57,800 nucleotides of DNA from positions 1 to 57,800 of the forward strand of contig JAFSXS010000093.1 of the NCBI GenBank assembly GCA_017443945.1. The letters run 5' to 3'. The notes below the pieces were generated by a model, which saw only the letters and a list, made by a program, of their open reading frames with translations, searched no databases and was not told where the DNA came from. Position numbers and translations under genes: made by a program. Origin of the DNA: Synergistaceae bacterium (GTDB taxonomy: Bacteria; Synergistota; Synergistia; Synergistales; Aminobacteriaceae). Position 1 is the first letter of the stretch; every line of letters starts with the position of its first letter. Below are positions 17,238-20,848 of the stretch, in pieces.

Positions 17238-18077
17238 TTAAATTAAATTTAAATCCGCAAACGCCTTTGCAAGCCCGTCATCACTCACTGAAGGACACAC
17301 AATATCAGCAAGTTTCTTGAGAGCTTCCGCACCGTTTGCCATACAGACGCTTGTACCTACTGTCTGTATCATTTCTAAATCGTTCATGCTGTCCCCGAAG
17401 CCAATAGAGTCGCTTATTGGAACTCCGAATTTTTTGCAGATAATTTCTACTCCTTTGCCCTTGTCGAATGCTTTATTAATAATTTCGCCGTTAATGCAGC
17501 GTGAGTCAGAGCCTCCGACTTTTACTTCTTGCACGACGATATTAAAATCGTTTCCCAGAGCCTTTTTGCAGTCGTCTAACTGTTCCATTTTTTGGCACAT
17601 AATAACGACTTTATAAATTGGTGAGCCGTCATATTGACTCATAGGTTTAATGCCGAGATTCTCTGATAATGCTTTGCGCCAACGTTCTAACTCGCTATTG
17701 CCTTCGCCTTGACCCTTTAGGAAGTCGCCGAGATTCTCATCGCCCCAAGAACCTTTTTCGGCCTCGATTGTGCAAAAAACGCCGTTATCGTGAAGAGTCT
17801 TTAAAGCTATGTCTCTTTCTTTGTCTGTCATGGGGTGATCGAATAAAATTTCCTCGCAATTTTCCCCGACAGCTACATAACCGCCCGCACATGATATAAC
17901 ACCGTCAAATTTGTATTTGAGAAGCGGCTTTAACATGTCAGGATTACGGCCTGTGCATAGAAAAATTTTGTGTCCGTTTGCCCTTGCTTTGTTAATTGCG
18001 TCGACTGCGCTTTGAGGCGGGATATTTTCTCCCGGTTTTGTTAGTGTGCCGTCGATGTCAAGAAATATTAATTTCAC
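17238..18077 (-). CDS. Cof-type HAD-IIB family hydrolase
   Basis: 279 aa. HAD phosphatase with motif I DIDGTLT (Asp nucleophile at residue 7), a Thr-containing motif II (LCTGRN), a C2B cap domain in the middle and motif IV GFGDSMNDLEM near residue 235. Probably a sugar-phosphate phosphatase working with the PTS gene 21 bases downstream. GTG start with AAGGAGGG ten bases upstream. Confidence 0.88.
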   Translation of the reverse strand: MKLIFLDIDGTLTKPGENIPPQSAVDAINKARANGHKIFLCTGRNPDMLKPLLKYKFDGVISCAGGYVAVGENCEEILFDHPMTDKERDIALKTLHDNGVFCTIEAEKGSWGDENLGDFLKGQGEGNSELERWRKALSENLGIKPMSQYDGSPIYKVVIMCQKMEQLDDCKKALGNDFNIVVQEVKVGGSDSRCINGEIINKAFDKGKGVEIICKKFGVPISDSIGFGDSMNDLEMIQTVGTSVCMANGAEALKKLADIVCPSVSDDGLAKAFADLNLI

Positions 18078-18108: not shown

Positions 18109-18357
18109 TTAAGCTAACCCGATTTCACGCCTTAATCCAGTAATAAACTCTACAGGGCGTTTTACTACTGCTGCGATCTGTTCATCTGAAAGCAGGCCGG
18201 ATTTTATGAAATCGCAAATATTTTGCCTGATACCTTTTTCGATACCCTCTTTGTTACCCTTTTCGAGTCCTTCTTTGTTACCTTTTTCGAGTCCTGCTTT
18301 GAGTCCTTCTTCCTTGCCTGCGTCCCACGCTAATTCAAGTTCACCTTTGTATCTCAT
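18109..18357 (-). CDS. Free-standing copy of Rpn C-terminal tail (RpnS-like small protein)
   Basis: 82 aa. Nearly identical to residues 258-331 of the Rpn nuclease immediately upstream, but with an ATG where that gene has GTG, and with seven four-residue units (KEEG, LKAG, LEKG, NKEG, LEKG, NKEG, IEKG) instead of five. The DNA copy spans about 240 bases in direct tandem. Its ATG lies 5 bases after the stop codon of the nuclease and has no clear ribosome site, so expression would depend on coupling. It may be a second antitoxin-type tail or a decaying duplication remnant. Confidence 0.6.
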   Translation of the reverse strand: MRYKGELELAWDAGKEEGLKAGLEKGNKEGLEKGNKEGIEKGIRQNICDFIKSGLLSDEQIAAVVKRPVEFITGLRREIGLA

Positions 18358-18362
18358 AGTCT

Positions 18363-18587
18363 TTAAGCTAACCCGATTTCACGCCTTAAAGCTCTAATAA
18401 ACTCAATCGGGCGTTTTACTACTGCTGCTATCTGTTCATCTGAAAGCAGGCCGGATTTTATGAAATCGCAAATATTTTGCCTGATACCTTTTTCGATACC
18501 CTCTTTGTTACCTTCTTCCTTGCCAGCCTTGAGTCCCTCTTCCTTGCCTGCGTCCCACGCTAATTCAAGTTCACCTTTGTATCTCAC
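18363..18587 (-). CDS. Candidate intragenic RpnS-type product from internal GTG start
   Basis: In frame within the Rpn nuclease gene. AAAGGAG is followed by a 7-base spacer and GTG at codon 258 (18587-18585), which would give a 74-residue tail protein. This matches the known arrangement in which an internal start makes a small antitoxin that inhibits the full-length nuclease. Expression is inferred from the ribosome site only. Confidence 0.55.
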   Translation of the reverse strand: MRYKGELELAWDAGKEEGLKAGKEEGNKEGIEKGIRQNICDFIKSGLLSDEQIAAVVKRPIEFIRALRREIGLA

Positions 18588-19358
18588 GCCGTTTCTCCTT
18601 TCTTCAAATAGGGTGTCTACATATTCCCTAAATTCCAAACGATATTGAATATCGCTAAGACTCATGACTCTTTCAAGATACATGATAAACCCCCGCCGCT
18701 TTTCTTTGTCTAGTCCCCTGTCAGATAATAATTTTGCTATTTTCTTCATGTAGCCGACTTTGCTTTTATCTGACTTACGGTACTTGGCCGCAATCTTTAC
18801 GGAATATATGAACAAGTCAACGAGGCTGTCTCCTGACAATAATTCTTCGTCGCTGAGTGCATAAGCCTTCACAATATTATATTTATACTCTATGGAAGTC
18901 CCGAATAAATCAACTTTGTAAATTCCCGGGTCTCCCTCGCGTTTTGGCCTGCCCGCTGTGAGTATAGCTAAAGCCGTCGGGTTCTTGCCGTAATGAATAA
19001 ATAACAAGCAGTAATAACGGAACATCCTCAACGAAAAATTTTCTCCGCCCTTACCCTGAATCTCAATGTGAAGTAACACCCATTCTTCACCGCCGTTTTT
19101 GAGAAAAATTTTCAGCAGCTTATCTACATATCTTTTCGGGGTCTTGCTGTCGTTGTCATTGAATGACGCTAATATATCGTGAAGTTCTTTATCGAGAAAT
19201 TCAGGTTCGCGATTCAAATCTGCCTTCTTATATAATGACGGTATAAATTTTTTGAGAATCTCCTGCCAGAAATCAGCAATAAAATCTTTCCAGAGTTCGT
19301 CATAATCAAACGCCTCTTGCTGTTCATCAGTTAAAATTATTGCAGTCTCTTCCGTCAT
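18363..19358 (-). CDS. Rpn family recombination-promoting nuclease/putative transposase
   Basis: 331 aa. PD-(D/E)XK nuclease of the Rpn/transposase_31 (PDDEXK_2) group. Likely catalytic residues are Asp79 and Glu99-x-Gln101 in LLHIEIQGK, followed by the conserved RMFRYYC and FIHYGKNP segments. The C-terminal tail (258-331) carries five four-residue repeats (272-291) and a conserved end domain. Start ATG 19358 has GAAGGGA ten bases upstream. An internal GTG at 18587 has a strong AAGGAG site. Such proteins act as DNA nucleases linked to phage defence in E. coli; that role here is inference. Confidence 0.88.
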   Translation of the reverse strand: MTEETAIILTDEQQEAFDYDELWKDFIADFWQEILKKFIPSLYKKADLNREPEFLDKELHDILASFNDNDSKTPKRYVDKLLKIFLKNGGEEWVLLHIEIQGKGGENFSLRMFRYYCLLFIHYGKNPTALAILTAGRPKREGDPGIYKVDLFGTSIEYKYNIVKAYALSDEELLSGDSLVDLFIYSVKIAAKYRKSDKSKVGYMKKIAKLLSDRGLDKEKRRGFIMYLERVMSLSDIQYRLEFREYVDTLFEERRNGVRYKGELELAWDAGKEEGLKAGKEEGNKEGIEKGIRQNICDFIKSGLLSDEQIAAVVKRPIEFIRALRREIGLA

Positions 19359-19498: not shown

Positions 19499-20848
19499 TT
19501 GAGACTACATAATCATTCGCACAATATGGACATGCTTCACGGGTCTTTGCTGGACAAGATTCTAATTTTCGCGCTGCCTCTAGCATTCAGTATGATATTG
19601 CAGCAATTATTTAACTCGGCTGATGTCGCAGTCGTAGGAAGATTCGACAGTCCTCAAGCTATGGCCGCAGTAGGCAGTAACGGAGCAGCAATTAATTTAA
19701 TGGTAAATTTATTTGTCGGACTCTCAATCGGCGCAAACGTAATTGTCGCAAAATATATCGGCAAGGGCGAGACACAAAAAATTCACGATGCAATTCATAC
19801 ATCAATAGCAGCAGCACTAATCAGCGGAGTAATTTTGCTTGTATGGGGCTTATGTGTGGCGAGATATTTATTAACTCTCATGAATACACCTGATGATATT
19901 ATTGACTTAGCAGTTATTTACTTCAGGATTTATTTTCTCGGAATGCCGTTTATCATGTTATATAATTTCGGTTCTGCAATTTTACGCAGCAAAGGAGACA
20001 GCAGCCGCCCTATGTGGTGTCTTATTGCCGGAGGAGTCATAAACGTGATATTAAATTTGATTCTCGTGATAATATTCAAATTAAGCGTCGTAGGAGTTGC
20101 CGCCGCTACAGTGATTTCTAATATAATAAGCGCGTTGATGATACTTTATTATTTATTGCACGAAGAAGCTCCGTTTACGTTCAGATTTAAAGATTTGTGC
20201 CTGATAAAAATTTACATGACCCAAATTATAAAAATAGGGCTCCCTGCCGGCCTTCAAGGTATGTTGTTCTCGATCTCAAATGTAACGATTCAGACGGCCA
20301 TAAACAGTTTAGGATCTTATGCGAGTGCGGGAAGTGCAGCGGCGTTAAATTTTGATTTCATCACATATTATTTTGTCGGAGCATTTACTCAAGCGGCCGT
20401 AACTTTCACGTCACAGAATTTCGGAGCGGGCGATTATTTGCGTTGTAAGCGGGTATTTAATTTGTCAATGCTTGCGGGACTATTTTTCACGGGGCTTGCG
20501 TGTTTTATCTGCGTTTTCTGGGACGAAGAAATTTTGCGGCTTTACACTACGAATCCTGAAGTAATGCATTATGCACGTGTAAGAATGATTCACGCGGTTG
20601 GATTCTTGTGGTTGTGCAACGTTTACGAGGTTCCCGGAGGAGCTTTGCGCGGGATGGGATATTCGACTCTGCCGACTGTAATTATATTGCTGGGGTGCTG
20701 TGTTTTGCGTATTGTCTGGTGCTGGACAATTTTTGCGTACATGAAAGATTTTGCGGTCTTGATGGACGTTTACCCGGCCTCATGGACTATAACGGGAATT
20801 GCGACTCTTATTGCATATTATTACGTCAGGAAAAAATTATTTGTGTAA
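19499..20848 (+). CDS. MATE family efflux transporter
   Basis: 449 aa with about twelve membrane segments in two six-helix halves. N-terminal family motif LPLAFSMILQQLFNSADVAVVGRF (in parts) and the mid-protein GLPAGLQGMLFS segment identify MATE exporters, which expel cationic drugs or metabolites using an ion gradient. A TTG start at 19499 is chosen because GGGAG lies nine bases upstream; ATG codons at residues 10 and 12 are alternatives without a ribosome site. Convergent with the Hsp70-like gene with only 4 bases between. Confidence 0.9.
   Translation: MRLHNHSHNMDMLHGSLLDKILIFALPLAFSMILQQLFNSADVAVVGRFDSPQAMAAVGSNGAAINLMVNLFVGLSIGANVIVAKYIGKGETQKIHDAIHTSIAAALISGVILLVWGLCVARYLLTLMNTPDDIIDLAVIYFRIYFLGMPFIMLYNFGSAILRSKGDSSRPMWCLIAGGVINVILNLILVIIFKLSVVGVAAATVISNIISALMILYYLLHEEAPFTFRFKDLCLIKIYMTQIIKIGLPAGLQGMLFSISNVTIQTAINSLGSYASAGSAAALNFDFITYYFVGAFTQAAVTFTSQNFGAGDYLRCKRVFNLSMLAGLFFTGLACFICVFWDEEILRLYTTNPEVMHYARVRMIHAVGFLWLCNVYEVPGGALRGMGYSTLPTVIILLGCCVLRIVWCWTIFAYMKDFAVLMDVYPASWTITGIATLIAYYYVRKKLFV

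Follow-up and report, generated by a model that had tools for sequence, protein, structure and literature searches.

Why should a nuclease gene that appears to encode its own inhibitor be followed directly by a second, free-standing copy of that inhibitor? The question is raised by a locus in the 57,800-nucleotide stretch of DNA analysed here (the window), which is one contig of a 2.4-Mb genome bin from an uncultured gut bacterium of the family Synergistaceae. According to the list of open reading frames of the window, the minus strand carries in order the gene of a 331-residue nuclease, a gap of 5 bases, the gene of an 82-residue copy of the nuclease tail and a gene for a HAD-type hydrolase. 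In E. coli, the tail of an Rpn nuclease is made from an internal start, and binds and blocks the full-length enzyme (Zhong et al. 2023, PMC10327210). Separate downstream RpnS genes have been described as well (ypaA behind rpnE, and another behind rpnC in some strains); they are of independent origin and subject to gain and to loss by deletion or fusion (PMC10327210). The arrangement of an intragenic antitoxin plus a downstream copy is already known from E. coli and is not new; the present analysis extends it to Synergistota with strong comparative support. The explanation that we prefer, with a probability of about 0.68, is that of an Rpn toxin with an intragenic RpnS and a maintained downstream paralogue that is off-register in its repeats and can take part in tail exchange.

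The features of the locus, in coordinates of the window, are as follows.

18363..19358, minus strand: Rpn-type nuclease (RpnL), 331 residues, with head (residues 1-257) and tail (258-331); from the open reading frame, invariant residues, RpnE profile match and predicted head
19122..19124, minus strand: codon for Asp79, predicted catalytic residue equivalent to RpnA D63; invariant column, RpnA mutants (PMC5350276)
19056..19064, minus strand: codons for Glu99-Ile-Gln101, predicted catalytic ExQ equivalent to RpnA E82/Q84; E99 and Q101 invariant, aligned with IEHQ of RpnE
18595..18601, minus strand: internal Shine-Dalgarno sequence AAAGGAG, 7 bases 5' of the internal start; duplex of -9.0 kcal/mol, kept in 29 of 30 homologs
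18363..18587, minus strand: putative intragenic tail protein of RpnS type, 74 residues, GTG start; from the sequence, translation presumed
18489..18548, minus strand: repeats of the nuclease tail, five four-residue (12-base) units, read in the sequence
18109..18357, minus strand: free-standing tail copy, 82 residues, ATG start, weak ribosome site; open reading frame, dN/dS against the tail
18235..18318, minus strand: repeats of the tail copy, seven four-residue units, read in the sequence
17238..18077, minus strand: HAD-type hydrolase gene, the downstream neighbour, marking a conserved site within the genus; family named from sequence
19499..20848, plus strand: MATE-type transporter gene, divergent, on the upstream side; family named from sequence

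MATE-matching antisense frames also lie upstream of the nuclease at two related loci (L090 and L091), and a plasmid search with the DNA of the locus gave no match. A duplication created by the assembly is unlikely, since the tail and its copy have diverged at many positions and independent genomes show this layout too.

The nuclease and its putative internal start

In an alignment of 30 homologs, E58, D79, E99, Q101 and R111 of the nuclease are invariant. The spacing of D79, E99-x-Q101 and R111 equals that of D63, E82-x-Q84 and R94 in RpnA, by which the core of Rpn L/S systems (PD-(D/E)XK, COG5464-like clan) is recognised, and in RpnA these four residues have been mutated with changes that affect activity (PMC5350276). 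Furthermore, hhalign comparison of the nuclease alignment with E. coli RpnE (E 1.1e-6, 217 aligned columns, probability 91%) places D79, E99, Q101 and R111 on the corresponding RpnE residues, and gives homology of core and tail to a characterised Rpn protein. The model of the nuclease (pLDDT 82) has a head of mixed alpha/beta structure whose best fold matches are all weak; PD-(D/E)XK nucleases such as EndoMS, Card1 and Kpn2I recur among them, as does Can2 (Z up to 5.7), and the head is predicted to resemble a PD-(D/E)XK nuclease. Besides D, ExQ and R at matching spacing, the protein shares with RpnA/RpnAS (PDB 7TH0) and RpnC a small C-terminal tail of three helices, the first of which holds the insertion point of the four-residue repeats; at 49 residues, the chain of RpnAS in 7TH0 is shorter than the window tail with its 74, and the main text of the E. 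coli study describes no downstream copy for RpnA (PMC10327210).

The Pfam and NCBIfam models left the head of the window nuclease unrecognised, PF04754 (Transposase_31) did not match the protein, and TIGR01784 matched in the tail region only, at 18.3 bits against a cut-off of 52.1. Because these curated cut-offs were not reached, we do not assign the window nuclease to the subfamily models PF04754 and TIGR01784; PF04754 is weakly matched by 9 of the 30 relatives (best E 1.1e-4). No PADLOC model matches the nuclease, PHROGs and Pfam scans with it yielded no useful family, and a direct sequence search of solved structures returned chance matches only. Matches to FliH and Yae1 were set aside as repeat or low-complexity matches.

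Codon 258 is a GTG (18587-18585) preceded by AAAGGAG (18601-18595) across a spacer of seven bases, AAACGGC, which had been pointed out in an earlier reading made from the sequence alone (the sequence-only reading) and is borne out by our re-reading. Taken alone, a single internal site is only suggestive of a real start; across the window, 0.9% of start triplets are preceded by a duplex this strong, and 12 of the 518 in-frame internal ATG or GTG codons in its long open reading frames have one as strong. Among the homologs, a site of -7 kcal/mol or stronger is present at the head-tail boundary in 29 of 30, whereas of the 392 in-frame starts elsewhere 4% are that strong (Fisher p about 3e-32). 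The boundary site had been picked as the best in a 20-residue stretch, and the same best-of-window scan was hence repeated along the whole alignment, where both scan windows at the boundary gave 29 of 30 and those clear of it at most 7 of 30. A wider survey with a more lenient search range found a boundary site at 69 of 71 loci. Because the boundary site is conserved in homologs and other in-frame starts are rarely so strong, these alignments show strong selection on the internal ribosome site, and translation would then begin at the GTG at 18587. The sequence-only reading would have been undermined by relatives that fail to conserve the site; the homologs, with the one exception, keep it. Collectively, the conserved site, the matching catalytic residues and the RpnE profile match support its proposal of an Rpn-type toxin with an intragenic antitoxin.

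In such a toxin-antitoxin locus, full-length RpnL would act as a PD-(D/E)XK nuclease, and RpnS made from the internal GTG would bind the RpnL tail via its long repeat helix and keep the nuclease off. We infer toxicity and inhibition, as well as the mismatch of specificity treated below, from comparison with the E. coli proteins. The model of the tail puts the repeats on one long helix and adds two short helices, a predicted layout that agrees with RpnAS as described in PMC10327210, and the tail profile matches YpaA (E 3.5e-6). The best PDB match of the tail profile, the 'cap repeat' of 8VD6, adds up five weak stretches and was discounted; 7TH0 is not among the matches listed in the fold search with the tail model, which is uninformative either way. 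The predicted C-terminal part of the tail resembles a helix-turn-helix, TrpR and a serine recombinase being among its weak matches, as one would expect if the tail proteins were mainly DNA-binding regulators of the locus and not antitoxins. We hold this to be very improbable, because the fold matches, none of them with a Foldseek E below 0.001, are weak and RpnS has been shown to act as an inhibitor in E. coli (PMC10327210).

The free-standing copy of the tail

The 74-residue tail has five repeat units (GKEE GLKA GKEE GNKE GIEK), and the copy has seven, 24 bases more, with its ATG at the codon equivalent to the GTG of the tail. These points agree with the sequence-only reading, which had further called the second gene a copy of exactly this tail; a copy it is, but not an exact one, 68 of 73 aligned residues being identical. 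The differences outside the repeats mostly cluster near the 3' end (PIEFIRALRR in the tail, PVEFITGLRR in the copy). In both proteins the repeats begin at residue 14 and their number varies in four-residue steps, which falls within the 8-20 residues past the RpnS start where variable repeats are expected of Rpn L/S pairs.

The ribosome site of the copy is weak (-3.7 vs -9.0 kcal/mol for the internal site), and the copy is probably translated by coupling to the nuclease stop, 5 bases upstream. Of 71 related nuclease genes, 14 have a recognisable copy directly downstream. With a single exception these copies start between -1 and about 50 bases past the nuclease stop, and three of them overlap that stop in ATGA. 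Because these distances are mostly short, coupled translation is likely for the copies as a group. The tandem duplication of the tail would thereby provide a third product of the locus, a separate RpnS paralogue coupled to the upstream stop.

For the tail and the copy of the window, synonymous changes number about 9.8 (48 sites) and nonsynonymous changes about 7.2 (171 sites), at dS 0.24 and dN/dS 0.18. The frames are intact in each of the 14 tail/copy pairs from Synergistaceae, with dN/dS from 0 to 0.57, and several pairs have dS above 0.5. As one unconstrained member would give a higher dN/dS, these values show purifying selection on the pairs, and they support the view that the duplicated tail is maintained as a coding sequence. 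The combination of dN/dS and intact frames rules out a decayed copy, and the plain decay in relatives that would have spoken against the sequence-only reading is not what we found.

One could still see in the copy a functionless by-product of tandem slippage or recombination, in transit to loss. This would account for the patchy occurrence at one site, since among 30 congeneric genomes the place upstream of the HAD gene holds a nuclease with a copy, a nuclease alone or, in many, neither, and it would also suit the weak ribosome site of the window copy. We nevertheless regard it as unlikely, given that 14 of 14 pairs are intact with dN/dS below 1, several of them at dS above 0.5, and that several other copies keep their own ribosome site or the ATGA overlap.

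As to the age of the copies, pairwise scores place eight of nine nearest to their own upstream tail, the exception being a far-diverged gene of the nearest relative, L003. L003 is 89% identical, and its tail is 16 residues (four units) shorter. In a tail tree that is weakly resolved, with support limited by the short sequences, the window tail groups with the L003 tail and not with its own copy (support 95/82). The duplication may thus be older than the split between the window and L003, in which case L003 would have lost its copy or had it replaced.

The downstream genes of relatives take several other forms. L003 (2440-2764, reverse strand; in L090, 5785-6109, reverse) has in the place of the copy a 99-residue S-like gene that possesses a strong ribosome site but resembles the tail only weakly, in the C-terminal part; it may be a far-diverged RpnS. 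At L012 (2378-2954) the downstream gene encodes 173 residues with apparently three tail C-terminal domains in a row, and appears to be a tandem fusion of RpnS units. At L026 (2406-2760, reverse strand) the copy comprises, in addition to the tail, a piece of the nuclease head (profile positions 202-235), which shows that a duplication can begin elsewhere than at the internal start codon.

Repeat number in tail and copy

We compared lengths within each pair over the interval between the equivalent start and the C-terminal domain, with anchors set by hand. For the 14 Synergistaceae pairs, the copy differs from the tail by +8 (window), -12, -4, +4, +4, 0, +4, +1, -4, -8, -4, -4, -8 and -12 residues. 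In 12 of the 14 the difference is a multiple of four other than zero; the exceptions are L016, with equal repeat number, and L026, nearly equal at +1 residue.

The pair rpnE-ypaA of E. coli (PMC10327210, NC_000913.3) resembles the window locus in its internal start, behind AAAAGGAGAGATTA, in a tail copy that begins at the equivalent codon, in a diverged C-terminal third and in the differing number of four-residue units (in K-12, no extra unit in the rpnE tail and one in ypaA). It differs in that the E. coli copy has a strong ribosome site of its own and starts 12 bases past the stop, whereas in the window the site of the copy is weak and the gap is five bases; in addition, K-12 RpnE is annotated as inactive, and the nuclease heads are only remotely alike. 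A query with rpnE-ypaA matches 5,371 E. coli genomes; tail and copy were unequal in nine of nine distinct combinations sampled for rpnE/ypaA (units in tail/copy: 0/1, 5/1, 5/2, 1/4, 8/6, 8/4, 5/0, 3/1 and 5/1). Random re-pairing of the E. coli alleles gives 0.56 expected matches, with 0 seen (P about 0.50). This shows that independent drift suffices, and selection for mismatch is therefore unsupported; what the sequences of both groups indicate is that the copies fail to track the repeat number of the tail. The main text of Zhong et al. 2023 (PMC10327210) makes no mention of repeat number in the downstream copies.

The consequence of a mismatch has been measured for RpnC only, where one added repeat on one side alone abolishes inhibition, in both directions (PMC10327210). 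If this rule is general, the differing repeat numbers make the copies a poor fit as spare antitoxins. With two units more than the tail, where one extra was enough to abolish inhibition in RpnC, the window copy would not be expected to neutralise its neighbour, and it is probably not a plain spare antitoxin for it. An extra dose of RpnS with repeat number of little importance would be in keeping with the tandem, same-strand and probably coupled position, with purifying selection on the pairs and with the finding that E. coli does produce its downstream RpnES protein (PMC10327210). Set against the RpnC result, in either direction, and unequal repeats in 12 of 14 and nine of nine pairs, we consider such a plain spare improbable. 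The sequence-only reading had offered a spare antitoxin of different specificity or an intermediate in tail exchange; different specificity and exchange gain from the repeat mismatch and from the E. coli C-termini described below, while the idea of a spare loses by the RpnC rule.

A further possibility is that the copy acts as a decoy that pairs with the intragenic RpnS and frees the nuclease, as an anti-antitoxin or trigger. RpnS does dimerise through its repeat-bearing helix (PMC10327210), and the copy has the same ends of helix 1 at a different length. Unequal repeats reduce pairing in the sole tested case, however, which would weaken a decoy too, and we give it very little credence. Under the preferred explanation of a maintained, off-register paralogue, the copy would be kept as a protein while changing in repeat number by a drift of its own, apart from the nuclease tail, and being usually in a different register it would probably neutralise its own neighbour poorly. 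The recurrence of the mismatch in two phyla sharpens the question of the role of downstream RpnS left by the E. coli work, and makes the view of the copy as a spare antitoxin directly testable.

Probable tail exchange and other Rpn-type loci

All sampled E. coli loci without ypaA carry a ypaA-type C-terminus on the nuclease itself (L053/L143, L055, L144 and L145), the end being further altered in L145. Since strains without the copy bear the C-terminus of the copy on the nuclease, tails appear to be exchanged at such loci. In E. coli, the stretch from tail to copy may have been deleted, or else the copy-type tail may be ancestral; both amount to a changed nuclease tail, and we infer the direction of exchange from the E. 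coli allele types.

In the window, tail and copy share two long identical runs, one of about 50 bases close to the start and one of about 84 bases midway, which are long enough that the locus could undergo the same exchange. Given this near-identity, recombination could delete the interval and put the repeat number and C-terminus of the copy on the nuclease. Gene conversion within the pair is possible; a search of 43 congeneric genomes for a recent DNA donor of the clustered 3' differences found none. Taken together, we favour altered specificity and tail exchange over spare dosage as the role of the copy. More speculatively, free-standing RpnS copies might be systematically off-register and kept for something other than neutralising the adjacent nuclease: as a store of alternative tails (repeat number and C-terminal helices) that recombination would install on the nuclease so that the locus can switch specificity, or as protection against foreign Rpn toxins of another register, a proposal that we advance tentatively and rate as rather doubtful.

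The genome of the window holds a second Rpn-type locus (L094, contig C35, 3022-1868, minus strand), with a PF12784-type nuclease that has an internal AAAGGAG...ATG at its tail; six bases past the nuclease stop begins a separate S-like gene of 86 residues. It is like the window locus in the ribosome-site-like motif at the tail boundary and in the S-like gene right past the stop, and unlike it in that the downstream protein is diverged from its own nuclease tail (44% identity over 45 residues), shows no clear units of four residues and is preceded by a GGGAGG site of its own. The number of Rpn-type loci varies between genomes, the congeners of the window having none to five Rpn-type matches and the related genome G046 about 20 (e.g. 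L121 and L127), some of them in tandem pairs.
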